Positions 22,067 to 34,276 of a stretch of 64,000 nucleotides of DNA are shown here, one piece after another; position 1 is the first letter of the stretch, and every line of letters begins with the position of its first letter. The translations under genes were made by a program, and so were the position numbers. Source of the DNA: Halotalea alkalilenta (GTDB lineage Bacteria > Pseudomonadota > Gammaproteobacteria > Pseudomonadales > Halomonadaceae). Location of the stretch: positions 372,001 through 436,000 of the forward strand of contig NZ_CP015243.1 in assembly GCF_001648175.1 (NCBI RefSeq). The letters are read 5' to 3'. Under the pieces are notes generated by a model. It worked only from the letters and a program-made list of their open reading frames with translations, was not told the DNA's origin and ran no database searches.

Positions 22067-22219
22067 GGGAAATATACCCGGTTCTCTACCCATCCGGGGC
22101 TTGAAAGCCAAGCAACGCCCATAATGGAAAAGCCCCGAAAACCAGCGGATTAGCTGATTTTCGGGGCTTTTTGCCTCACGGTGACCTGCGAGGTGGGAAG
22201 ACTGGCGCGCCTGGCGAGA
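22067..22219. repeat. Left copy of the ~153-bp imperfect direct repeat bounding the island
   Basis: This stretch runs from GGGAAATATACCC through a GCCCCGAAAA/TTTTCGGGGC terminator to ACTGGCGCGCCTGGCGAGA (22201-22219). It aligns along its whole length with 34121-34276 beside the tRNA gene. The last 19 bases are identical in the two copies and include the 3' end of tRNA-Arg with CCA, so they are the recombination core. The remainder is clearly similar but diverged. Confidence 0.85.
22130..22172. terminator. Bidirectional terminator in the left repeat
   Basis: AAGCCCCGAAAA (22130-22141) pairs with TTTTCGGGGCTT (22158-22169); an inner CAGC/GCTG extends the stem, and a T-run follows. It is the counterpart of the tRNA-Arg terminator at 34183-34226. 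Confidence 0.8.
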
Positions 22220-22641: not shown

Positions 22642-23334
22642 TTAATTAAAGACGACATCAATTAATTTATTTTGTCCTGAAGAAACTAACTTACACCATA
22701 TAAGAAGCAATACACCGAGGAGCAACAAAGCTGCAATAAAATTATTCGAACTAGTTTTAGTGCCGCTCGAATTATCTCTCGCGTTATTTTCTTGAGAAGA
22801 CAATGGAGCCACAAAACTTTGAATAATAGGCAGCCCATTTATAGCTATCATTATTAAAGTCGATCCATACATAAGGAGATCGCTTGCTAAATCTATAGAT
22901 GCCTCTGTTAATTGCCTTGGAGGAACCAAGTGCATCACAACAAGAGTCAAAAAATTTGCTAATACCGAGATTACGACTGACAATACTAATGCCGGAAATG
23001 GATATACACGAGCCAACAATTTGATAATACATGCCATTGAAAGAGATATCGCAAGGAAAAAAGACAAAATTAACAACAAATTAGCCACATTAATATCTGT
23101 TGCTTGAACCTGATGCCCTACATTATTTTGCACTATTACTTTAACACCCGTTGGTACCTTTTGGTTTTGAATATACGCTTGCAACATTCCAGCACCAGAG
23201 ATGAACATTCCCGCCACGGTTGTCGAAACCATAATAGGGGATGATTTTAATTCTCTTATAGCAGATTCTTTTAGCATAACACTCAGCCCCAAAATCCAAA
23301 TAAAATATAGAAATTTAATTACGCAATCATACAT
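22642..23334 (-). CDS. Multi-spanning membrane protein of unknown function (cargo module)
   Basis: A 230-residue protein with about five or six predicted membrane helices (around residues 4-22, 35-55, 84-110, 112-138, 153-174 and 196-216) and a hydrophilic asparagine/serine-rich linker before the last one. I do not recognise the family. Its composition is strongly AT-rich compared with the surrounding chromosome and shared only with the ATPase 30 nt upstream, so the two were acquired together and are likely cotranscribed. The start may instead be the methionine at 23277, since neither has a strong ribosome site. A role as membrane effector partner of the ATPase is inference. Confidence 0.68.
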   Translation of the reverse strand: MYDCVIKFLYFIWILGLSVMLKESAIRELKSSPIMVSTTVAGMFISGAGMLQAYIQNQKVPTGVKVIVQNNVGHQVQATDINVANLLLILSFFLAISLSMACIIKLLARVYPFPALVLSVVISVLANFLTLVVMHLVPPRQLTEASIDLASDLLMYGSTLIMIAINGLPIIQSFVAPLSSQENNARDNSSGTKTSSNNFIAALLLLGVLLLIWCKLVSSGQNKLIDVVFN

Positions 23335-23364
23335 TGAGAAATTGTAATATTAAAACCCTAAATA

Positions 23365-24807
23365 TTATCGTAAATTAAGAGCTTTCCATAATCCCCTATG
23401 CAATATTATGTTTTCGTCTTCATTAAATGAAGAATGCCTATTCCTATATTTAAATGTGTAAAAAGTGGTTCCTCCAGATCGATGTTGAATATTTCCTAAA
23501 GCACTACATTCAAATAAAGCCTCTACTATCTCTAAAATTCTCTCCGGCATCAGTGAATTCGGCGATTTTCTAGAGACATCTATTAATTCGTTTATATGAA
23601 AATCTCTTTTTCTCACCTTACCAAGACACTTTATTATCTTTGAAATTTCATCAGGACGAGCATATCCATTCAGTTCATCCTTTATCTCGGGAAGAAAATA
23701 TTTTATGGAATATTCGCGCATCCCGGATTTGATCCTTTCAATAGTTAATTTTCCCGCTGATGCAAAATTTTGGATATAATTTAATAGTTGCAAAAAGTCA
23801 CGCGGGGTATGGCGAGTCATGTCGAGTAAATATTTCCGAGAAGAAGTTCCATCAATGGTTGGAGGAAAAAAATCATCAAACAAATTTAATTCTCTTTGCA
23901 AGCTTCGAACTGCTCTAATTTGTGCAGCCTTTAAAAGGAGAGAGTTATCTGGATCATTTGGGTCATGATACCAATCCATTTCGATAGAAAAATCTTGACG
24001 TATTTTATTATTGTTAGAACCTGGAAGGCGCTCAAAAAGGTCTGTTCGGCAGAGTAAAATAATCTTCGCCGGAACTTTTTTTCGTGCGAAAGATGAATTT
24101 AATCTACTAACTTCATATATCAATGCCGATAATGATTTATACTGTACTTCTCGAGCCGTCAATATATCATCTAGCCCATCGATAATAAGATAATGATTGC
24201 TTTCGCTACGAAGATCAGATATCAACTCTTTCAAACTTTCAACGAAGTTAGGAATTTCAGAGGCAGGCTTAGTCTCCGAGCCAGCCCAGGAATATTCGGC
24301 AAGCCGTCCTGGCAAAGATAATTTAAAACTATGTCTTGCACTGGTTCGCACGATAGATGCAGGATCTGACTTTGGGGATAATCCCATTTCACGAAAGGCT
24401 TTTACTGCATCTCTAAAAATAGATGATTCGGGATAAGAAAGACCTTCATCTTTTTCAAATGATTCTAGCAGGTAAATTAATAGTATCCATGACCATGCAG
24501 AAGGATATTTTGTTTCTGGCTCAGAATCTCCGCGTATGATTTTAGCGAAAGGGGTAAATGGAAAATCCTGTAATGATACAACTCTAGCAAATGCATTATG
24601 CTTATCATGCAAATTTAACTCAATTCGTTCTGCAATTGATGACTTCCCAGATCCTTTATAACCTAAAAATAAAAATTTCGACCCAGTGGTCGCTTCAATA
24701 TCAACAGATCTAAAATCTACATGCCCTTCAGTAATAAGCCCTGGATCTCTGGCGCGCTCTGTTTCTGCACTAGAATAACCAAATACTATTTGACTAAAAT
24801 CACCCAT
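23365..24807 (-). CDS. P-loop ATPase resembling the Sll1717 family
   Basis: A 480-residue NTPase opening with an FGYSSAETERARDPGLI-type segment before the P-loop, characteristic of Sll1717-type ATPases. Walker A is GYKGSGKSS at residues 49-57, Walker B YLIIDGLDDIL near 206-216, and a sensor-like LLCRTDLFERL follows near 255. The C-terminal 200 residues are helical, with a TRHTPRDFLQLLN segment like the winged-helix end of STAND/ORC-type ATPases. AGAGGA lies six bases before ATG 24807; the upstream start at 24846 lacks this. AT-rich cargo with the membrane protein downstream. No function is established; defence is a reasonable hypothesis from context. Confidence 0.8.
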   Translation of the reverse strand: MGDFSQIVFGYSSAETERARDPGLITEGHVDFRSVDIEATTGSKFLFLGYKGSGKSSIAERIELNLHDKHNAFARVVSLQDFPFTPFAKIIRGDSEPETKYPSAWSWILLIYLLESFEKDEGLSYPESSIFRDAVKAFREMGLSPKSDPASIVRTSARHSFKLSLPGRLAEYSWAGSETKPASEIPNFVESLKELISDLRSESNHYLIIDGLDDILTAREVQYKSLSALIYEVSRLNSSFARKKVPAKIILLCRTDLFERLPGSNNNKIRQDFSIEMDWYHDPNDPDNSLLLKAAQIRAVRSLQRELNLFDDFFPPTIDGTSSRKYLLDMTRHTPRDFLQLLNYIQNFASAGKLTIERIKSGMREYSIKYFLPEIKDELNGYARPDEISKIIKCLGKVRKRDFHINELIDVSRKSPNSLMPERILEIVEALFECSALGNIQHRSGGTTFYTFKYRNRHSSFNEDENIILHRGLWKALNLR

Positions 24808-25455
24808 AAAAAATCCTCTTAACTGGAACAATTTCAAAAATAACAACCATTAGATAAATCTGAATTTTTCAGCTCTTTTAATCCCAAGCGAAAAAGAATC
24901 GAATCGCGGCCTGATGACTGCAAAAAAGCACCGCGGCCTTAACCTCTCAAAAGACGCAGGGTATTCAGGCTCGTCGAATGACATGAGCAGATTTTGAAAG
25001 AAATCTGCCTGTCCAGACTTCCAGGATCAGCGGTATAGGATGTCGGTGTTTTGAAAGCCATATCGACTAATCTCTTATGTAAAAAAGAAAACTATTCGCT
25101 GACAGAGTAAACTGAAGACTGCGGCTGCGGATCCCCCGCTCCTATGTTTCCTCTCGGGATGGAGATCCGTCAGGCTCCTATAGCCTTTCTCAAGACTACT
25201 TTTTATTTCAATTTGACACAATCTGTAGCATACCTTCCAGATCCTCGCCGCATTTTTCTCTTCCTTCTCGAAAAAACGCATAAATCCGCATAATTTTTTG
25301 CCCCCGCTCCCCTGCCCGCCGCCCCAGCACTGGCGCGGTTTTCGGCCGTCTCCAGCCTGCCGAAAAGCCCACCCATTTAGCGCGCAGGCGGGGCGGGGAG
25401 TCGACAACGCGCGGGCGGGTCGCGGCGCGGTGGCGGCGTCGGTGCACCAAAGGAC
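24808..25455. other. Non-coding stretch between cargo module and Psu-like gene
   Basis: Here the low-GC cargo gives way to GC-rich element backbone, at about 25290. It contains a GCAGATTT/AAATCTGC hairpin at 24987-25008 and two nearby direct copies of CGCGGCC. The minus-strand frame 25075-25407 has neither ribosome site nor recognisable motif. The promoter of the ATPase gene should lie in its left part. Confidence 0.5.
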
Positions 25456-25506: not shown

Positions 25507-26280
25507 TCAGCTGCGCTGGCGCCGTCTGGCTTGCTCTCGCTCCACGCGCAGGCGATGACGATAGGCAGGAGAATGCACCTTTTGGGCGTCGCCTTCGCGA
25601 CTATCACGCTTGATCCGGCGCATCGACTCGGGCAGTGGATCCCGCTTGGATTCGCCGTGCCCATGTCGGGCAATCAGCGCTTCGAGCCACTGGCGGTAGC
25701 GGTGCGTCGTGGCCTGCCGCTCCTCGGCCTGACCGGCGAGGGTGGGCGCGTAGTTACCGAAGCTACGCCCGACGATAGGGTCTTGCGCTACCTGCTCCTC
25801 GATCAGCGCGCGGTGCGAGGCGATCGCCGCGAGCAGCGCTTGCCCCGCCTCGGTGCCGAACACCTGCGCGGCCAGGGTATCCACCCGGTAGCGGCGCCAT
25901 CCCTCCCTGGCGGCCCGGTAGTGGCCCAGGTAGGCGGTGCGACGATCGGCATTGTCGAAGCGTACCTCCTCGAGGTCGGCCTCGAGCGTGTCGGCGAGTT
26001 GCTCGTACTCGCCGGCCAGCTCGGCATGCTCGGCCGCCTTGGCCTTGAGCTGGCGAATCGGCTTGGTCAGTTCCCCGTCGGCGTCACGGAAGCGTTCACG
26101 CCATTGCCGGGTCGCTTCCTCGGCTTCGAAGCGGGCGGCGTTCGCCGCCTGGCGGTGTTTGTCGACCCGGTCGGCCATGGCCAGGGTCTTGGTGCGGCTC
26201 TCCTGATAGGCGGCCTTGGCCTGGTCGTGGGCGTCGAGTTGGTTGACGAGCGATTGGGGCAGTGTGGCGCGGTCGTTCAT
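25507..26280 (-). CDS. Helical coiled-coil protein, possibly Psu (polarity suppression)-like
   Basis: A 257-residue, highly charged protein, predicted almost entirely helical with coiled-coil heptads over about residues 15-130 and a basic C-terminus (REQARRRQRS). P4-type satellites encode Psu, a helical Rho inhibitor and capsid decoration protein. The KAAY segment near the N-terminus and overall layout are reminiscent, but this product is longer and I cannot claim homology. The start at 26280 (MNDRATLPQS) has AAGGA at good spacing; the longer frame to 26424 adds low-complexity sequence. It has its own terminator and is separate from the replication operon. Confidence 0.6.
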   Translation of the reverse strand: MNDRATLPQSLVNQLDAHDQAKAAYQESRTKTLAMADRVDKHRQAANAARFEAEEATRQWRERFRDADGELTKPIRQLKAKAAEHAELAGEYEQLADTLEADLEEVRFDNADRRTAYLGHYRAAREGWRRYRVDTLAAQVFGTEAGQALLAAIASHRALIEEQVAQDPIVGRSFGNYAPTLAGQAEERQATTHRYRQWLEALIARHGHGESKRDPLPESMRRIKRDSREGDAQKVHSPAYRHRLRVEREQARRRQRS

Positions 26281-26410
26281 GGTCGTTCCTTGGGGTGGTG
26301 TCGGTGTCGTGGTCTTTTTCGCCGGCCAGGAAGGCGGATCCGGTCGCGTTTCGGGGGTGTCGGTGGAGTGTGTCCTCCCTATAAAACGTTCCTCTCTGTA
26401 TAAAATCGGC

Positions 26411-26640
26411 TGCAACACGTGCAACGAGGCAACAACCCATCAACCATGCGGGTTACAGCGCGATTTCGATGTGCAACGGCCCCGTGCAGCAGTGCAACGG
26501 ACCTCCGTTTTCGGAATAAGAGAAAGAAATGGTCTTAATAAAAAGCTATATGTGTTGCCCCGTTGCCTCCTTCTTCTTTAGCGGTGCAACGCTTGCGCCC
26601 AGCAGTGGCGTGGGCGTTGCACCGTTGCCCGTGTTGCCCC
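26411..26640. repeat. Cluster of GTGCAACG/CGTTGCAC repeats, candidate replication origin
   Basis: Within 230 bp directly beyond the helicase gene there are about ten copies of a short element in both orientations. GTGCAACG occurs at 26419-26426, 26471-26478, 26492-26499 and 26584-26591, and its complement CGTTGCAC at 26615-26622. Variants TGCAACAC, GGCAAC, GTTGCC, CGTTGCC, CGTTGCCC and GTTGCCCC lie at 26411, 26428, 26554, 26561, 26623 and 26633. P4 replication uses iterons near the gene of its primase-helicase, so an ori/crr role is plausible. No gene overlaps the cluster. Confidence 0.65.
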
Positions 26641-26713: not shown

Positions 26714-28627
26714 CTAGCAGGCTAAGTTTTTGCTTCCGTGCTCGGCATCGCGATCGACCTCCCTTTCCTGGCCAGCGAATACCTCGAGGCGGGTAGGAGC
26801 GATGACGTAGAGGCGGGTCTGTCCACCGTTCTTGAGTCGGTAGTTCTTCTGCCATTTGCCGGCATCGCGTTTGGCGATGGCTTCGGCGGCGGCGAGCGCC
26901 TTGACGATACGATCGAGCCCGAACCCCGGCGCGGCCTCGGCGAGCCCGGCACGGTTGAACAGGTACAGCCGCTGGTCGTCGTGGAGCTCCCAATAACCGG
27001 CGCGCTGATTGACCACCACGAAGCTATCGATGCAGGAGAAGCGGCTATCGCCGTGGCGGTCGATGAAGTCGGCGATGCTGGCGAGGATCTGGCGATCCTC
27101 GGCGTTACCGTCGCCCACCCGGGCCAGCCACTCGGCGAATAGCTGGCGGCAGGCATTGAGCGCGTCGCCCTCCTGCCAAGGGAGCAAGGCCTGGTCGATG
27201 GCCAGCTCCCCCGCCAGTGCGATCAAAGCGAAGCGATCGGCGACCCGGCCTGCCTGAGCGTTATGGACGTCGAAGCCGTTGCGGATCTCGGCGAAGCGGG
27301 TACACAGCCGGTCGAGGTCGTCATGCTCGAGCAGCCGCTCGACGAACACCGGGCCGGCATGACCATAGCTGCCATGGGTGGCCACGGTCAGGGTGCGGTG
27401 GAATTCCTCGCCGCTCAGCCCGTGGAGGTCATCGAAGGCACGATGGCGGCGAGAGCCGGCGTTGACGTCGACCATGCGCAGCTCGGCGCCGGCATGGGCC
27501 GGGTTGCCGGAGATGGCGGCATGCTCACTCAGCGAGCGCTCGCCGCTGGAGAGCGCCAGCAGTCGCCAATAGAGCTTGGGCCGCCCTTCGCGCTCGCGGG
27601 TCATCGTGCCCTTGCCGGTACCGTTGGCGATCGCATAGGCCATCTCCTGCACCCGCTTGGGATCCGCCCGCTTGATCTCATCGAGGATCAGGATGGTGTC
27701 GTTCCGGCCGGTCGCCTCGATCTCGACCCCGCCCTTGGAGATGTCCCACGAGGCGGCGAACACGCCGGGATCACCCCAGACCGAGGCGGCGACCAGCTGG
27801 GCGAGTGATTTCCCGCTCGAGGAGTCACCAACCAGATGCACGCCGCCGCCGTGGACGCCGACCTTGTAGAGCAAGGGGCCGGCGAGCGCACAGCACAGCG
27901 ACAGGATCAGCACCGGGTTGCCGAGGCAGGGCCTGGCCACCTCCGCCTGCCAGGCGTCCAACGTGCCGGCCTGGGTGAACAGGCGCGCCCCGCGCCCGCT
28001 CTCCTGGTAGCGCACCTCGGCCTCGCCGATGATCCGACCCGGCAGCACGAAGGCGCCGGAAGCGGCGTGCCAGCCCGGTTTGGTGGTGGTGGCCAGCACC
28101 TGGTCGAGCCGGTGGTGGCTGGCGATATAGGCCGGGATCAGCTTGCGCTGGTAGTACTCGACCACCAGGCCCTGGCGCATCAGCGCGCGCAGCAGCTCCT
28201 CGCCCTTGCCAGCGAGCGACTCCATCGCCATCACCCATTCGACGGTGCGGCCGCGATAGTCGAAGCGCAGCAGCCGGCCGACGCTGCCATCCTCACTGTC
28301 GACGGTCTCGGCGACCACGAACAGCGGCGCGCAGATCCAATGATCGACCGGGATCCCCCGGTCATCGCCGGGGCTCTGCTTGAGGCCGTGGTACCAGGTG
28401 CCGGCGGCGAAGTGCTTGCCTTCGACCGTGGTCGGCTCGGTGTAGACCGCGAAGCACGGACGCGGCGGCATCAGGCGTTCGACGGGCATCGATGCACCTG
28501 CCGACGTGCCGGGCTCGGTGGTCTCCACGAGTGCGAGCGGCTCTTCGCCACGCCGGGGCGTTGCTTTGCCTTGTGCCGGGAACCGCTCGGTCGGGCGAGG
28601 CACTTTTTCATGGGAGCGGCGACTCAT
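26714..28627 (-). CDS. DUF927-type replication helicase/ATPase of the satellite
   Basis: A 637-residue protein with the DUF927 layout of plasmid and P4-like element helicases. A beta-rich N-terminal region (about 50-230) precedes an ATPase core with Walker A GDSSSGKS at 267-274 and Walker B LILDEIKRAD at 311-320. A C-terminal helical region follows. It is expected to unwind the element's origin together with the toprim primase encoded just upstream, in the manner of the P4 alpha protein split over two genes. The start overlaps the primase stop by 4 nt. The repeat cluster lies directly downstream. Confidence 0.82.
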   Translation of the reverse strand: MSRRSHEKVPRPTERFPAQGKATPRRGEEPLALVETTEPGTSAGASMPVERLMPPRPCFAVYTEPTTVEGKHFAAGTWYHGLKQSPGDDRGIPVDHWICAPLFVVAETVDSEDGSVGRLLRFDYRGRTVEWVMAMESLAGKGEELLRALMRQGLVVEYYQRKLIPAYIASHHRLDQVLATTTKPGWHAASGAFVLPGRIIGEAEVRYQESGRGARLFTQAGTLDAWQAEVARPCLGNPVLILSLCCALAGPLLYKVGVHGGGVHLVGDSSSGKSLAQLVAASVWGDPGVFAASWDISKGGVEIEATGRNDTILILDEIKRADPKRVQEMAYAIANGTGKGTMTREREGRPKLYWRLLALSSGERSLSEHAAISGNPAHAGAELRMVDVNAGSRRHRAFDDLHGLSGEEFHRTLTVATHGSYGHAGPVFVERLLEHDDLDRLCTRFAEIRNGFDVHNAQAGRVADRFALIALAGELAIDQALLPWQEGDALNACRQLFAEWLARVGDGNAEDRQILASIADFIDRHGDSRFSCIDSFVVVNQRAGYWELHDDQRLYLFNRAGLAEAAPGFGLDRIVKALAAAEAIAKRDAGKWQKNYRLKNGGQTRLYVIAPTRLEVFAGQEREVDRDAEHGSKNLAC

Positions 28628-29679
28628 GGGCGGCCCTCCTCGCCGAAAGCGTCATTCATCGCCACCTGACTGGACGGGTCAGGAAGCAGACCGAGCCGCC
28701 AGCGATAGAGGTCGTTGAAGTCGGTCAGCCCGTCCGGGCTCCCTACTGGCCAGCGAGGAAACACCACCCGTGCCCCGTGCGTCTCAGCAGCGACGATCGC
28801 CGCCTGACGCCCGGGATTGCCGTCGGTCTGGCGGTCGTCATCGCCGGTGACGATCAGCCGGGCGGCGGCGCCATAGCGTTCGCGCAGGCGGGCCACCACC
28901 GCGGCGAGGTTGCCGGCATGCATCGCGCAGGCGACCGCCCGTCCAGTGACGTGATGCAGGGTCGCGCCGGTGGCCCAGCCCTCGCAGATGAACAGTGGCG
29001 CCCCCCGGGTGACGCGGCCAAGGGTGGCATAGGCGCCGGCGACCCGGCCGCCGCGCAGGAAGCGCTTGCGGCCGTCGATGCCGATGCATTGCAGGTTCAC
29101 CAGTCGCCCGTCGCCGTAGAGCGGCACCAACAGAGTGCCGTCGCCACCCTGGCGCAGCTTGAACGGCGGCAGCGCCTTGGCCACCAGGTAGGGATGCGAG
29201 GGACTGGCCGACTGCGCCGCGTCCCACAGCCAGCGCGCACGGCGCTCGGCATCGCGATGGCGGCGGCGCTGCTCGGCCTGGGCCTGGCGCTCGCGCTGCG
29301 CACGCTCAGCGATCGCCTCGGCGGATGCGGGCGCTGCCCCGCTATCGCTTGGGGACGATGAGGAAGCGAAAGCACCGAGCCCCAGGGCACGATCGATCGC
29401 CATCGCCGCATCGACCTGGCGGCAGCCGTGCAGGTAAGCATACAGCGACACCAGGTCGCCGCCGTGGGCGGCATGTGAGGCGAAGTCGTTCCACTTGCCG
29501 CTGACCAGCGAAACGCCGAAGGAACCGGCCGCACGGTCGCCGCGGGCCGGGTTGCGAGCGACCCACTCGCTACCCTGGCGCTTACCCTCGGGCAGCCAGG
29601 TGGCGACCAACCGCTCGGCGGCCGGGAGCGCCCGCTGGGCCACGGCGCGGATCTTGGCGAAGGTGGCGTGTTCACTCAT
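28624..29679 (-). CDS. Toprim domain-containing primase-like protein
   Basis: A 351-residue protein. The N-terminal region contains GSFGVSLVSGKWNDFASHAAHGG shared by P4/plasmid primase-type proteins (quoted in part only as the KWNDF core). An arginine/glutamine-rich helix spans about 118-150. A C-terminal toprim fold has the catalytic glutamate in ICEGWATG (233-238) and the acidic GDDD (279-282). It probably synthesises primers for the element. The start at 29679 has GGGAGGA eight bases upstream and overlaps the previous small gene by 8 nt; the frame to 29724 is an upstream extension without ribosome site. Confidence 0.82.
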   Translation of the reverse strand: MSEHATFAKIRAVAQRALPAAERLVATWLPEGKRQGSEWVARNPARGDRAAGSFGVSLVSGKWNDFASHAAHGGDLVSLYAYLHGCRQVDAAMAIDRALGLGAFASSSSPSDSGAAPASAEAIAERAQRERQAQAEQRRRHRDAERRARWLWDAAQSASPSHPYLVAKALPPFKLRQGGDGTLLVPLYGDGRLVNLQCIGIDGRKRFLRGGRVAGAYATLGRVTRGAPLFICEGWATGATLHHVTGRAVACAMHAGNLAAVVARLRERYGAAARLIVTGDDDRQTDGNPGRQAAIVAAETHGARVVFPRWPVGSPDGLTDFNDLYRWRLGLLPDPSSQVAMNDAFGEEGRP

Positions 29680-30175
29680 CGCGTGGTCCTCCCTGCCCGG
29701 GGGCCTCCGCATCGTTGGCGGCAAAGCTCACCCGCCGGACGATGCGTTCAATGTTGTCGAGGAGCTGGCAGGCACGCGTGCTGGTCACGGTGATCTCGCC
29801 GGCGTGGACAAGCGCGATACAGGTACCCAGCAGCAGATGGAGGTTTTCGGTCAGTTCGGAGCCCAAAGCCACCGCCTCGCGGTAGCGCTGGGAAGTGCGT
29901 GGGCATTCGCTTGCCTCGAGCGTGGCCGGATCGGCGATGGCCACCGCGAACCGCTCCTCGATCACGGTAAGCGACTGCTCGAAGCACTGCGCCTGCGCCT
30001 CGGTCAACCAGCCAGCCGCGTGGGCGAGCTGAATCTGGCCATGGGTCATCCAGATATTGGCGACCCGCGTCGCCCGCGAGGCGGTGAACACCGCCTCGAG
30101 GCGCCGCTCGAGAAGCTGTGCGACGCTCGGCCGGGGATGCTTGCGGGTAACCAGTGTCAGAGGCGGCTTAGCCAT
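29672..30175 (-). CDS. Hypothetical protein of the satellite operon (167 aa)
   Basis: Mostly helical, basic at the N-terminus (KPPLTLVTRKHPRPSVAQ) and acidic at the C-terminus; no recognised domain. It contains a segment ELTENLHLLLGTCIALVHAG that looks like a long amphipathic helix. It overlaps both neighbours by exactly 8 nt, and its ribosome site GAGGTG is encoded in the tail of the preceding gene. Its place just before the primase suggests a replication accessory or regulatory role, without direct evidence. Confidence 0.7.
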   Translation of the reverse strand: MAKPPLTLVTRKHPRPSVAQLLERRLEAVFTASRATRVANIWMTHGQIQLAHAAGWLTEAQAQCFEQSLTVIEERFAVAIADPATLEASECPRTSQRYREAVALGSELTENLHLLLGTCIALVHAGEITVTSTRACQLLDNIERIVRRVSFAANDAEAPGQGGPRDE

Positions 30176-30461: not shown

Positions 30462-30702
30462 GCCTCACCCCCTCCCCTGCGCTGGCGTGGAAGGCATGGC
30501 CGAGCAGGCACTCGGCATCGGCGGCCAGGTACTCGGCGGCCACGGTGATGGCGTGGAGGTCGGCTTGGCCGGCACCGTCGAGGTCGTGGCGATTGATACA
30601 GGCGAGCAGCTCGAGCACGGCGCACAGCCGGCGGCTGCCATCGTCGAACAGCGCGCGGGCACTGGCGTCGGGATGCACGGTAAGGGTGAAGGGATTAGCC
30701 AT
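30454..30702 (-). CDS. Small hypothetical protein of the satellite operon (82 aa)
   Basis: A predicted helical protein (LCAVLELLACINRHDL and AITVAAEYLAADAECLLGHA) with a tail EGVRHG similar to those of its neighbours. It starts ATGGCTAA inside the end of the upstream gene with an 8-nt overlap. The long frame 30465-31403 on the same strand overlaps it in another register and is less credible here. Confidence 0.6.
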   Translation of the reverse strand: MANPFTLTVHPDASARALFDDGSRRLCAVLELLACINRHDLDGAGQADLHAITVAAEYLAADAECLLGHAFHASAGEGVRHG

Positions 30703-30940
30703 GCGCCACCTCCGATGCCTGGAGCTGGTCGAGGATGGCGGAGAGAGCGTCGAATTCTGGGGTGGGGAGTGCGCCGAGGGCTTGGGCCATCGCCAACATG
30801 CCGAGCAGTTGCTCGCGCTGTGCGGGACGGCGATTGACGCGATAGACGATCAGCCGGGCACCGAGCTGGGCGACGGCGATCTGTTGAAGCGAGGGGGTAA
30901 AACGCGGACGTGCAGATGCACGTGAGGCGTGAATGGCCAT
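30695..30940 (-). CDS. Small hypothetical protein, first gene of the satellite operon (81 aa)
   Basis: A basic N-terminus (ASRASARPRFTPS) is followed by a helical body and the tail SEVAHG, in which the SD and start of the next gene are embedded. It is the first coding region after the structured leader, 10 nt beyond the complementary segment at 30951-30986. The P4 counterpart position is occupied by kil/orf88-type genes, but no sequence similarity is claimed. Confidence 0.6.
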   Translation of the reverse strand: MAIHASRASARPRFTPSLQQIAVAQLGARLIVYRVNRRPAQREQLLGMLAMAQALGALPTPEFDALSAILDQLQASEVAHG

Positions 30941-30950
30941 GGGGCGTAAC

Positions 30951-31147
30951 TCCTAGAGTAATGGAGTCGCCACCGATCCTTCTCACAAGATTGGGGGCGA
31001 CCGTACGCGGGGTGAGAAACCGGCACTCTAGGAAACCGGCCGGGCCGAAGCCCGCCCACGCACGGCCGCCATAACACATTGCAGACACAAAAAAAGCGCC
31101 AGCAATGATTGGGGCGCTACTGCGCCTAGAGTCACTCGGGTTCTCAC
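30951..31147 (-). ncRNA. P4-type immunity leader with three complementary segments (seqA, seqB, seqC-like)
   Basis: Read leftward, a leader contains three related blocks. Block 1 (31147-31125) contains GTGAGAA and ACTCTAGG. Block 2 (31033-31012) contains TCCTAGAGT and TTCTCAC, the exact complements in reverse order. Block 3 (30986-30951) repeats GTGAGAA and ACTCTAGGA. Thus block 2 can pair with either block 1 or block 3 over two stretches of 7-9 bases. In phage P4, seqB within the CI RNA pairs with seqA and seqC and triggers premature termination of the replication operon. Order, spacing and an intervening hairpin terminator agree with that scheme. The exact ends of any processed RNA are unknown. 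Confidence 0.65.
31089..31118 (-). terminator. Leader terminator between complementary blocks
   Basis: On the minus strand, AGCGCC (31118-31113) and GGCGCT (31100-31095) form a 6-bp stem with a 12-nt loop and a following run of seven T. It sits between the first and second complementary blocks, where conditional termination of the operon would be expected. Confidence 0.7.
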
Positions 31148-31178
31148 GCCCGGTCGCAGATTTTGCTGCGACGGACGC

Positions 31179-31208
31179 ATGATAGCGAGACCCGTATGGC
31201 CTCGGCAA
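31179..31208 (-). promoter_or_regulatory. Candidate promoter of the immunity leader/replication operon
   Basis: On the minus strand TTGCCG (31208-31203) and TATCAT (31184-31179) are separated by 18 bases. Transcription would start near 31172, just ahead of a CGCAG/CTGCG hairpin (31155-31170) and the first complementary block. This matches the position of PLE in P4. Confidence 0.5.
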
Positions 31209-31454
31209 GCCGGGCGAGGAATCGGTGATGCCGTTGGTCCGCTGTGCGGGAACAATATCGAGACCAACGGAAGTGTCCACGCTCGGCGTGTGCGTGATAA
31301 CCTGAATACGATGATTGGTTGGATATGCCCTGGCAGCGTTGGCCCGCTGACCAGGGTTTTTGCGTTGTTTGGGCACGAGAAGGCTCCTTCCGCCCGATGG
31401 CAAGCATCGGGCAGTGATCGAATCGAGGTGGTTTAAAGCGAACTAAGGCGGGAC

Positions 31455-31661
31455 TTAGTAATCGACTTCGATAGCGGCGGTGTCGTTGGCGGCATGGCGG
31501 TCATCCAGCATCACCACCGAGACGAGACCGCTTGCGCCATAGCGTTGGATCCGTGCGCCGGGCCGCTGGGTGGCGTCGACCAAAGCGGCCTGGATCGTGT
31601 CGATATCTTCCTCGGTGAAGCGTAGCGATTGGCCGGCGACGGTCATGGTGAAATGTTTCAT
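31455..31661 (-). CDS. Small hypothetical protein downstream of alpA (68 aa)
   Basis: A small protein with MTVAGQSLRFTEEDIDTIQAAL near its start; no recognised domain. The start at 31661 overlaps the alpA stop by 4 nt (ATGA) and has AGGTGG eight bases upstream, so it is coupled to alpA. The longer frame to 31679 would start inside alpA. The 250 nt between its stop and the leader promoter hold no convincing gene. Confidence 0.6.
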   Translation of the reverse strand: MKHFTMTVAGQSLRFTEEDIDTIQAALVDATQRPGARIQRYGASGLVSVVMLDDRHAANDTAAIEVDY

Positions 31662-31939
31662 GCGCGGGCCACCTGGCAAATCTCGAACGGTGTGTTCAGG
31701 GCTTGGTTACGGGCAGCTACCCTCTCGGCAATCCAACGATCAATCTCGACCTCGAGCCAAGCGACGCTGTTTTCGCCAATCGGCACCGGCGCGGGGAACG
31801 TGCCCTTGCGCATCTCGGCATAGATCGCCGAGCGGCTCTTGCCGGTCTTGAGCTCCACCTCCTGGCGGCGCAGCAAGCGGTTGCCGAGCTTGAGCGCATC
31901 GACGGGGGTAAAGGGGCGGTCGGATTCGATGTGCAGCAT
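31658..31939 (-). CDS. AlpA family phage transcriptional regulator
   Basis: A 93-residue DNA-binding protein of the MerR-like excisionase/AlpA class. LLRRQEVELKTGKSRSAIYAEM is the helix-turn-helix (residues 22-43), followed by the wing KGTFPAPVPIG and WLEVEIDRWIAERV. In P4-like elements AlpA/Vis activates integrase expression and acts as excisionase. It is transcribed leftward with one small gene. Confidence 0.87.
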   Translation of the reverse strand: MLHIESDRPFTPVDALKLGNRLLRRQEVELKTGKSRSAIYAEMRKGTFPAPVPIGENSVAWLEVEIDRWIAERVAARNQALNTPFEICQVARA

Positions 31940-32878: not shown

Positions 32879-34093
32879 TCAAGCGCTGTGCTTATCGACT
32901 CCCTCACGGAGATAGCCATCGAGCAGGTCCGCCCACTCCTGCATCATCCTCGGTCGCTGCTCAGGCGACATGTGCATGGCGTGGACGTAGACGCCCTCGA
33001 TCCCGGGCAGCTTGTGGGAGAGCTGAAGCTCGATCCATTCGCGTGGGAAGCCGCGTTCCTTAAGCCCGGTGGCGATGACGTGGCGGGTGCCGTGGGGCAC
33101 GTGACGGCCGGCGTAACCCATGCGCTTGAAAGCCATCCCCAAGGTCATTTCGGAGATTGGCTTGCGGGGATCGCTGCGGCCGGGAAACAGCAGCGGATAG
33201 TGCCCGGTGATCGCGCGCAGCTGCTCGAGTACGGCGAGAGCTTGGCGAGGTAGTGGTACTTGGTGGGCGCGGCCCATCTTCATCCGCTCGGCGGGCACGT
33301 GCCAGACGGCCGCCTCGAGGTCGAACTCCTTCCAGTGCGCCTGGCGCAGCTCTCCAGGGCGAGCAGCGGTGAGAAACAGCAGCTGCATGGCGTACTTGAC
33401 CATCAGGCCACCGCGATAGTCATGAATCGCGCGGTAGAGCGCGGGCACCTCCTCCTGGCTGACATGGGCGAAGCTGCGCTTGCCAGGACCGCGCTCGAGC
33501 GCGACGCCAAGATCACTCAGCGGATTGTTGGCCGCCCTGCCAGTGACGATGGCCAGGCGGTAGATATCACGGCAGAAGAAGTGCACGCGGCGCTTCTGCT
33601 CGTGCTTGCCTTGCTCTTCCAAGCGCTTGAGCACCGCGAGCCACTCCAGTGGCTTGATCTCCTCGATGGGGCGATCACCGAGGAAGGGGAAAACGTGGAG
33701 CTCGAGCACCGCCCAACTCAGCTGGGCGCGCTTGGAGGTCGCCTTCCAGCGCTTAGAGGCATTGTCATGCCACTCCTTGGCCAGCAAGCGCAGCGTATTG
33801 CGTTGGGTCTCGGCATGCTCCTGCTGGTCCTGCTTACGCTGTTCGCCGGGATCGATGCCCTGCTTGACCAGCCGCCGCGCGTCGAGCGCCTGTTCGCGCG
33901 CCTGAGCCAGACTCACCTCGGGATAGTGGCCAAAGCTCAGCATGTTGCGCTTGCCGTTGGGCCGGTAGTAGCGCCAGCGCCAGCCCTTGCGCCCGTGGGG
34001 GAAGATGACCAGCTGCAAGCCATAGCCATCGGTCAGGGTGATGGTCTTGTCGCCAGGCTTGGCGAGCTGGACCTGTCGCGCGGTGAGAGCCAT
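32879..34093 (-). CDS. int: P4-type tyrosine integrase
   Basis: A 404-residue site-specific recombinase. The N-terminal DUF4102/arm-binding domain contains DKTITLTDGYGLQL and RNMLSFGHYPEVSLAQAR. The core has a catalytic Arg in TAARPGELR (Arg245), H-x-x-R in HGTR (His334, Arg337), a second His in QLSHK (His360) and the nucleophile Tyr369 in GVYVHAMH. It is full length with no lesions, so it is potentially active. It starts 167 nt from the tRNA-Arg 3' end and reads away from it, the standard arrangement for tRNA-targeting islands. Confidence 0.93.
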   Translation of the reverse strand: MALTARQVQLAKPGDKTITLTDGYGLQLVIFPHGRKGWRWRYYRPNGKRNMLSFGHYPEVSLAQAREQALDARRLVKQGIDPGEQRKQDQQEHAETQRNTLRLLAKEWHDNASKRWKATSKRAQLSWAVLELHVFPFLGDRPIEEIKPLEWLAVLKRLEEQGKHEQKRRVHFFCRDIYRLAIVTGRAANNPLSDLGVALERGPGKRSFAHVSQEEVPALYRAIHDYRGGLMVKYAMQLLFLTAARPGELRQAHWKEFDLEAAVWHVPAERMKMGRAHQVPLPRQALAVLEQLRAITGHYPLLFPGRSDPRKPISEMTLGMAFKRMGYAGRHVPHGTRHVIATGLKERGFPREWIELQLSHKLPGIEGVYVHAMHMSPEQRPRMMQEWADLLDGYLREGVDKHSA

Positions 34094-34120: not shown

Positions 34121-34276
34121 GGGAAATATACCCAATTCTATACCTATCGGAGGCTGGAATGCCAAGGAACGCCCAGAACGGGAAAAGCCCCGAAAACTAG
34201 CTAATTCGCTGTTTTTCGGGGCTTTTTTGGCCTCGCGAGGAACCGCGAGGAAGGTATACTGGCGCGCCTGGCGAGA
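34121..34276. repeat. Right copy of the imperfect direct repeat, including the attachment core
   Basis: Partner of 22067-22219. The identical core ACTGGCGCGCCTGGCGAGA (34258-34276) overlaps the last bases of the tRNA-Arg gene. The preceding part contains the GGGAAATATACCC segment next to the integrase start and the tRNA terminator. Confidence 0.85.
34183..34226 (-). terminator. Terminator of tRNA-Arg (bidirectional)
   Basis: AAAAGCCCCGAAAA (34183-34196) pairs with TTTTCGGGGCTTTT (34213-34226), giving a 14-bp stem with T-runs in both directions. It lies 33 nt beyond the tRNA 3' end. Confidence 0.88.

Follow-up and report, generated by a model that had tools for sequence, protein, structure and literature searches.

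A 64,000-nt stretch of Halotalea alkalilenta DNA (contig NZ_CP015243.1; 'the window' in what follows) holds what is very probably the C4/CI immunity region of a P4-like satellite provirus; we put this reading as a whole, with the attenuation step discussed below kept apart, at about 0.9. The region occupies the 268 nt ahead of an 81-aa gene on the minus strand (30940-30695). There, a single leader transcript would carry an upstream target, seqA (boxes a1 and b1), then a terminator, the C4 antisense RNA, a downstream target, seqC (boxes a2 and b2), and finally the first gene of the operon. The leader is a fresh member of an already described family, the C4 (P4 CI) antisense-RNA system, and rows for the c4 antisense RNA and for c4-a1b1 appear in a table of PMC2864571. 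The P4 CI/C4 immunity RNA and all three of its pairing partners are hereby placed in satellites of the Halomonadaceae; our literature search found no paper on P4-like satellites in Halomonas.

Table 1. Positions in the window of the leader elements and of the main features of the satellite.
Feature	Position	Strand	Basis or remark
Promoter-like site TTGCCG-18-TATCAT	31179..31208	-	9/12 matches
c4-a1b1 match (RF03163), upstream C4 target region (P4 seqA)	31133..31185	-	54.6 bits (cut-off 46.7)
a1 box GTGAGAA, complement of C4 linker	31141..31147	-	identical to P4
b1 box ACTCTAGG, complement of C4 P3 loop	31125..31132	-	pairing
Block 1 GGCGC, proposed 5' arm of anti-terminator; its GG is the end of b1	31122..31126	-	
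Block 2 GCGCC, arm common to the proposed anti-terminator (with block 1) and the terminator (with block 3)	31113..31117	-	
Intrinsic terminator (as sequence) AGCGCC/GGCGCT + T7	31089..31118	-	3' end of isrK match
C4 antisense RNA (RF01695), P4 CI RNA family	30990..31076	-	78.9 bits (cut-off 45), full length (positions 1-87 of 87)
P3 loop UUUCCUAGAGUG, specificity loop, pairs with b1 and b2	31024..31035	-	
C4 linker UUCUCAC (DNA TTCTCAC), pairs with a1 and a2	31012..31018	-	
a2 box GTGAGAA of downstream target (P4 seqC)	30980..30986	-	
b2 box ACTCTAGGA	30951..30959	-	overlaps Shine-Dalgarno AGGAG (30954-30950)
Target hairpin GACTCC-9-GGAGTT	30948..30968	-	b2 in loop and 3' arm, Shine-Dalgarno in 3' arm
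Attachment repeat, 19 nt, at tRNA-Arg end	34258..34276	.	
Second copy of attachment repeat	22201..22219	.	element ~12.06 kb
Integrase, P4 Int homologue	32879..34093	-	37% to P4 Int, E 1e-78
AlpA-type excisionase/regulator, P4 ORF88 homologue	31658..31939	-	42% to P4 ORF88, E 2e-16
First operon gene, 81 aa, uncharacterised	30695..30940	-	phrog_6684; position of P4 kil
Toprim primase, like N-terminal part of P4 alpha	28624..29724	-	PF13362; 39%, E 5e-21
DUF927 replication protein (primase/helicase)	26714..28627	-	PF06048, E 1e-65; phrog_1139
Sid/Psu-like protein	25507..26424	-	phrog_6165 Psu-like, E 2e-14

We analysed the leader with Rfam models, with phage P4 (X51522) run as a control. As can be seen from Table 1, the C4 and c4-a1b1 models match the leader above their cut-offs; a match to the isrK model (RF01394; 31172-31089) is barely above its own (51.4 bits against 50). 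P4 is likewise matched by all three, in identical order and on the same strand, scoring 74.9 bits for C4, 60.8 for isrK and 44.1, just below the cut-off of 46.7, for c4-a1b1. Within 61 genomes of the family, the last of these models found 23 matches at E 0.001, with 12 of them above the cut-off; in the window, the b1 box as defined by pairing falls just beyond the 3' end of its match. The use of the C4 and isrK models for detecting relatives of CI and seqA is described in a satellite survey (PMC10111431). The initial annotation of this DNA, made from the letters alone, had proposed the P4-type order of seqA, CI (seqB) and seqC, which proved right. It had also supposed that the control had diverged completely in sequence and kept its geometry. 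This we reject, because the window and P4 share, besides the three Rfam models, a 35-nt stretch of 88.6% identity and an a box, GTGAGAA, that is the same letter for letter. The upstream target of P4 consists of GTGAGAA and TTCACAGG, and its downstream target of GTGAGAA and TTCACAGGA, followed by a start codon.

The two GTGAGAA-containing flanks and the complement between them were found on the minus strand where the initial annotation had located them, and the middle block is indeed complementary to both flanks, its linker matching a1 and a2 and its P3 loop matching b1 and b2; the loop-side block CCTAGAGT (31032-31025) lies within the span of the P3 loop. Inverted repeats I1, I5 and I10 and direct repeat D11 of the leader are these same blocks. 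The three-block complementarity is real and beyond chance: when the 268-nt leader was dinucleotide-shuffled 4000 times, 3 shuffles contained an 8-mer with its complement between two copies, 86 a 7-mer triple of this kind, and 1 an 8-mer triple together with a separate 7-mer one, as in the leader. The C4 RNA itself folds at -51.0 kcal/mol (z -4.27).

The promoter-like site that had been pointed out just upstream is also there, and a scan of 30900-31700 gave 2 promoter sites against 0.3 expected; transcription would start near 31172, where the isrK match begins. Likewise, the hairpin with seven T between the first and second blocks, that is, between seqA and the CI RNA, is present as sequence. 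Its arms, AGCGCC (31118-31113) and GGCGCT (31100-31095), enclose a loop of 12 nt and are followed by the T run (31095-31089). The hairpin was missed by a generic terminator scan, which allows loops of up to 8 nt and gave one unrelated plus-strand site; the isrK model, unlike the scan, takes the hairpin in. When the whole leader is folded, the 3' arm of the terminator enters another hairpin, CATTGC...GCAATG (31106-31074), which spans the T run, suggesting that the terminator may stay unformed in read-through RNA.

The leader belongs to a 12-kb element that, from its gene content, we took as a P4-like satellite provirus in tRNA-Arg: a P4-type integrase, an AlpA/ORF88 protein, a primase and a tRNA attachment site are all present. 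The order along the minus strand is integrase, AlpA-type gene, leader, four small genes, Toprim gene, DUF927 gene, Psu/Sid-like gene and two accessory genes. BLAST of the P4 proteins (beta left out) against the window gave matches with E <0.001 only for Int, ORF88, alpha (Toprim part) and Sid. The likeness of the primase to P4 alpha is confined to the Toprim part, and BLAST gave no significant match between the DUF927 protein and alpha (E 0.09). For the protein at 25507-26424 the sources differ: PHROGs calls it Psu-like, while BLAST to P4 (Sid, E 8e-5) and the PDB sequence search (Sid of entry 7jw1, E 7e-4) point to Sid. A hairpin beside tRNA-Arg (AAAAGCCCCGAAAA/TTTTCGGGGCTTTTT, 34183-34227) recurs at 22128-22172 near the second attachment repeat, indicating that the duplicated stretch exceeds the 19-nt core.

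C4 is common among relatives of the host. It was found at 111 places in 86 of 201 genomes of Halomonadaceae, in 7 of 185 genomes sampled from the class (the genome under study being included in both counts) and in none of 14 control genomes. From the family hits that are 87 nt long we picked 53 (of 111 in all) to build a model, which detected C4 in 73 of 80 loci, mostly of Pseudomonas, with a gene for a protein related to the DUF927 one; one of these matches is weak (L044, 39.6 bits). The seven loci without a match are L016, L017, L042, L049, L052, L068 and L079; L079 begins within the DUF927 gene, and L042 630 nt ahead of it.

We asked how far the pairing is kept in these relatives. Over the 53 sequences, 97.1% of the cells of the C4 helices are paired (0/500 shuffles as high) and two-sided changes occur in 15 of 27 pairs (3/500 shuffles as high), although helix 3 varies too little for a co-variation test. 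For the pairing with the targets, 110 of the 111 hits could be parsed; L191, below the Rfam cut-off, is absent from all these counts. A complement of the linker of at least 6 nt is present on both sides in 109/110 leaders (110 upstream, 109 downstream), against 4.4% of 10326 non-cognate pairs. A complement of the loop of at least 7 nt is present on both sides in 78/110 (85 upstream, 96 downstream) and is short on one side or more in 32, against 441 of 11762 non-cognate pairs. In a second, primase-linked set, where 6 of the 76 model hits were unparsed and some genomes are common to the family set, the linker is kept on both sides in 70/70 and the loop in 51/70 (non-cognate loops, 88/4620). The loop is also kept on both sides in 38 of 54 loci that by title lie outside the Halomonadaceae (Pseudomonas and others; primase-linked loci from L016 up, without L022 and L034). 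The initial annotation would have been refuted by related elements that had lost the three-way complementarity; most relatives keep it.

The pairing is preserved while its letters change. The 110 family hits contain 68 different P3 loops, rising to 95 when the primase-linked set is added. Of the 87 positions of C4, 8 differ between the window and a sister strain (L157, same contig as L002); 7 of these lie in the loop, and the two targets of the strain are swapped to match. At two further loci (L149 and L163) the linker and the a box have traded places with their complements, GTGAGA being in C4 and TCTCAC in the upstream target, which is a coordinated change. The prediction that elements residing in one genome should differ in loop found no support in a test of low power: the loop is shared by 4 of 36 co-resident pairs, against 110 of 5959 pairs between genomes. 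Three of the four sharing pairs lie within a single genome (G022), which has six C4 places (L105, L114, L115, L173, L175 and L189), three of which share loop and linker; no downstream loop target was located at L115.

At the downstream target, the linker and P3 loop of C4 would pair with seqC and so cover the Shine-Dalgarno of the first gene. A start codon lies 7-14 nt past the paired stretch in 100/110 leaders, and C4 probably covers this site, an effect inferred from the anatomy. The Shine-Dalgarno stands in the 3' arm of a hairpin. Of 180 sites, 154 were located, and 113 of them have 6/6 pairs, whereas 3.1% of shuffled sites do; the sites are related to one another, so that the counts are not independent. 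The arms vary in their letters (GACTCC/GGAGTC, AGCTCC/GGAGCT, GGTTCC/GGAGCC). With b2 in the loop and 3' arm of this hairpin, the contact is probably one of loop with loop, part of the C4 target being in the hairpin loop.

The linker and P3 loop would pair with seqA as well, and it is here that we propose, as a model, an anti-terminator. After b1 the leader reads GGCGC (block 1), GCGCC (block 2), GGCGCT (block 3) and the T run, and the pairings 1:2 and 2:3 are mutually exclusive. By default, block 1 would pair with block 2. Pairing of the C4 loop with the first two letters of block 1, GG, would free block 2 for block 3, and transcription would stop at the T run. Whether the whole leader or its first 100 nt is folded, the minimum-energy structure has the 1:2 hairpin and lacks the terminator, and in the ensemble of the free window leader 1:2 has a probability of 0.98 and 2:3 of 0.02. 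Holding the 8-nt loop target unpaired brought the terminator to 1.00 (control, 0.10).

The same calculation was made on 112 leaders (the 110 family hits, P4 and U10), of which 101 were used. The mean probability of the terminator rose from 0.44 to 0.94, compared with 0.46 when the mask was shifted off the GG; 89 leaders rose by >0.1, and none fell by that much. The 11 leaders left out are L137, L155, L156, L174, L181, L183, L184, L186, L187, L188 and L190. L181, L186 and L187 were excluded for want of a T run, which follows the G+C arm in the other 109 of the 112; in these three the upstream terminator seems lost or replaced. A second set, drawn partly from the same genomes and with 3 of 8 class-level loci and 3 of 75 leaders unparsed, gave 0.40 to 0.93 over 72 leaders (control, 0.46; 65 rising), and its 56 leaders from outside the Halomonadaceae gave 0.38 to 0.96 (control, 0.47; 52 rising). 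The shifted control also rose by >0.1 in 31/101 and 25/72 leaders, respectively. An earlier, looser measure, which counted any partner of the terminator 3' arm and left 12 of 112 leaders unparsed, had given a mean of 0.62 to 0.80 over 100 leaders, with 51 rising by >0.1; the stricter one replaced it. In P4 the calculation found no anti-terminator, the terminator standing at 0.97 both free and bound, and for P4 the step is therefore not claimed.

These figures are a matter of consistency rather than proof, because block 1 was located by a pattern (GG[CT]G adjoining b1) and masking its GG removes 1:2 by construction. Blocks 1-3 are nearly invariant, so that there is almost no co-variation among them; L179 and L189 have a different letter set in which both folds are still possible. 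The terminator part folded alone is mildly better than its shuffles (z -2.30; 3/200 as good). At seqA the GG is followed by CGC in 84/89 and 65/67 leaders of the two sets, although the C4 loop has no complement to these letters; at seqC it is followed by AGC or AGT in 80/100 and 50/59. This pattern suggests one loop CC with two uses: the same CC would block the anti-terminator at seqA and the ribosome-binding site at seqC. CI-dependent premature termination at the leader is a thermodynamic prediction, and for the anti-terminator switch, taken as a single step, we see the odds as about even. The same balanced judgement applies to the wider proposal that, in the Halomonadaceae/Pseudomonas branch of C4, seqA is a true three-block attenuator in which the antisense RNA takes the GG of the anti-terminator, the same CC takes the Shine-Dalgarno GG in the conserved seqC hairpin, and the loop serves as a free specificity code, its type changed at three sites around a fixed switch core. 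The attenuator detail is possibly new to science. The outcome of C4 action at the two targets would be that the replication genes are silent in the lysogen and that the cell is immune to satellites of the same loop type.

It is possible, but doubtful, that the system is of the P1 type only, with C4 repressing translation of the first gene at seqC, transcription ending later through the loss of translation (Rho), and the upstream site titrating C4 or being a relic. The precedent of P1 (as described in PMC5320573), the overlap of b2 with the Shine-Dalgarno at a regular distance from the start codon, and the hairpin around it would all suit such an arrangement. It fits less well with the upkeep of seqA, whose linker and loop complements are about as frequent as those of seqC, and with the near-constant T run behind the G+C arm. 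We also consider it unlikely that the short terminated leader (31172-31089) acts as IsrK does, as a trans-acting RNA that competes for the C4 segment and thereby switches on the gene downstream. The paper on IsrK of Gifsy-1, which is trans-acting, names P4 SeqA as a structural homologue, but it describes P4 as an immunity system that stops transcription (PMC4825925); the isrK match that suggests the likeness only just passes its cut-off in the window and is better in P4. A trans role of this kind and the immunity role could coexist.

A coding cause for the conservation, with an Eta/Ash/Icd-like frame running through the leader and the RNA pairing incidental, is very improbable. In 54 of the 97 relatives looked at, the first gene's frame runs on through the leader without a stop, and the P4 frame there matches Ash (Pfam) and an Icd-like family (NCBIfam). 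In the window, however, this frame is closed by a TAG within b2, and the frame that remains open matched nothing in Pfam or NCBIfam; the two-sided helix changes and the three-site swaps are signatures of RNA. We disfavour this explanation.

The P4 CI RNA offers the closest comparison. In P4, too, seqB is complementary to seqA and seqC, b2 overlaps a Shine-Dalgarno ahead of a start codon, and the replication gene alpha lies downstream. The t1 terminator of P4 requires CI RNA for efficient termination. The two differ in loop type and in the gap from isrK to C4, which is 12 nt in the window and 107 in P4. They also differ in that P4 has nested, in-frame eta and kil genes (described in PMC10111431), whereas the first gene of the window is out of frame with the leader frame. 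The C4 RNAs of P1 and P7 belong to the same family (RF01695), and for these an account is given of the C4 loops, of a' and b' pairing with targets that include the ribosome-binding site, and of processing by RNase P (PMC5320573). By analogy with P1 and P4, C4 would presumably be excised from the leader transcript and act in trans. P1 C4 controls an antirepressor, in contrast to the P4-like operon of the window, the first gene of which gave no antirepressor match. With the IsrK/anrP system of Gifsy-1 the window shares a leader that matches the isrK model up to the terminator; its first gene, lacking an antirepressor match, sets it apart, as does the marginal isrK score.

The Pseudomonas records vB_Pae_U10 and phiAH14b encode related DUF927 proteins (63.8% and 60.7%, respectively). 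The vB_Pae_U10 leader is 74.9% identical over 87% of that of the window and has the same blocks and a matched loop, although the loop, like the host, is a different one. In plasmids such as pT181 and pIP501, too, an antisense RNA makes a leader give up its anti-terminator fold for that of the terminator. Those RNAs are unrelated to C4 and come from the opposite strand, whereas C4 would be cut from the same leader and would additionally cover a ribosome-binding site. If the attenuator is true, it explains how this antisense RNA could make a simple terminator stop RNA polymerase with neither Rho nor ribosomes taking part. The two parsed leader sets (110 and 70, partly from shared genomes, with 95 loops) make both the specificity code and the termination step testable.

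The far end of the satellite (22642-24846) carries the two accessory genes, a possible defence cargo. One encodes a 493-aa AAA-type ATPase below the Pfam cut-offs, with a weak match to mad8 (E 2e-4), and the other a 230-aa protein that by eye looks membrane-bound; the defence library gave a single weak match in all. At two other loci of the same family (L165 and L180), C4 lies ahead of antirepressor genes (with a P22_AR N-terminal domain and AntA, respectively), so that in this family its control may extend to prophage-type operons as well as those of satellites.
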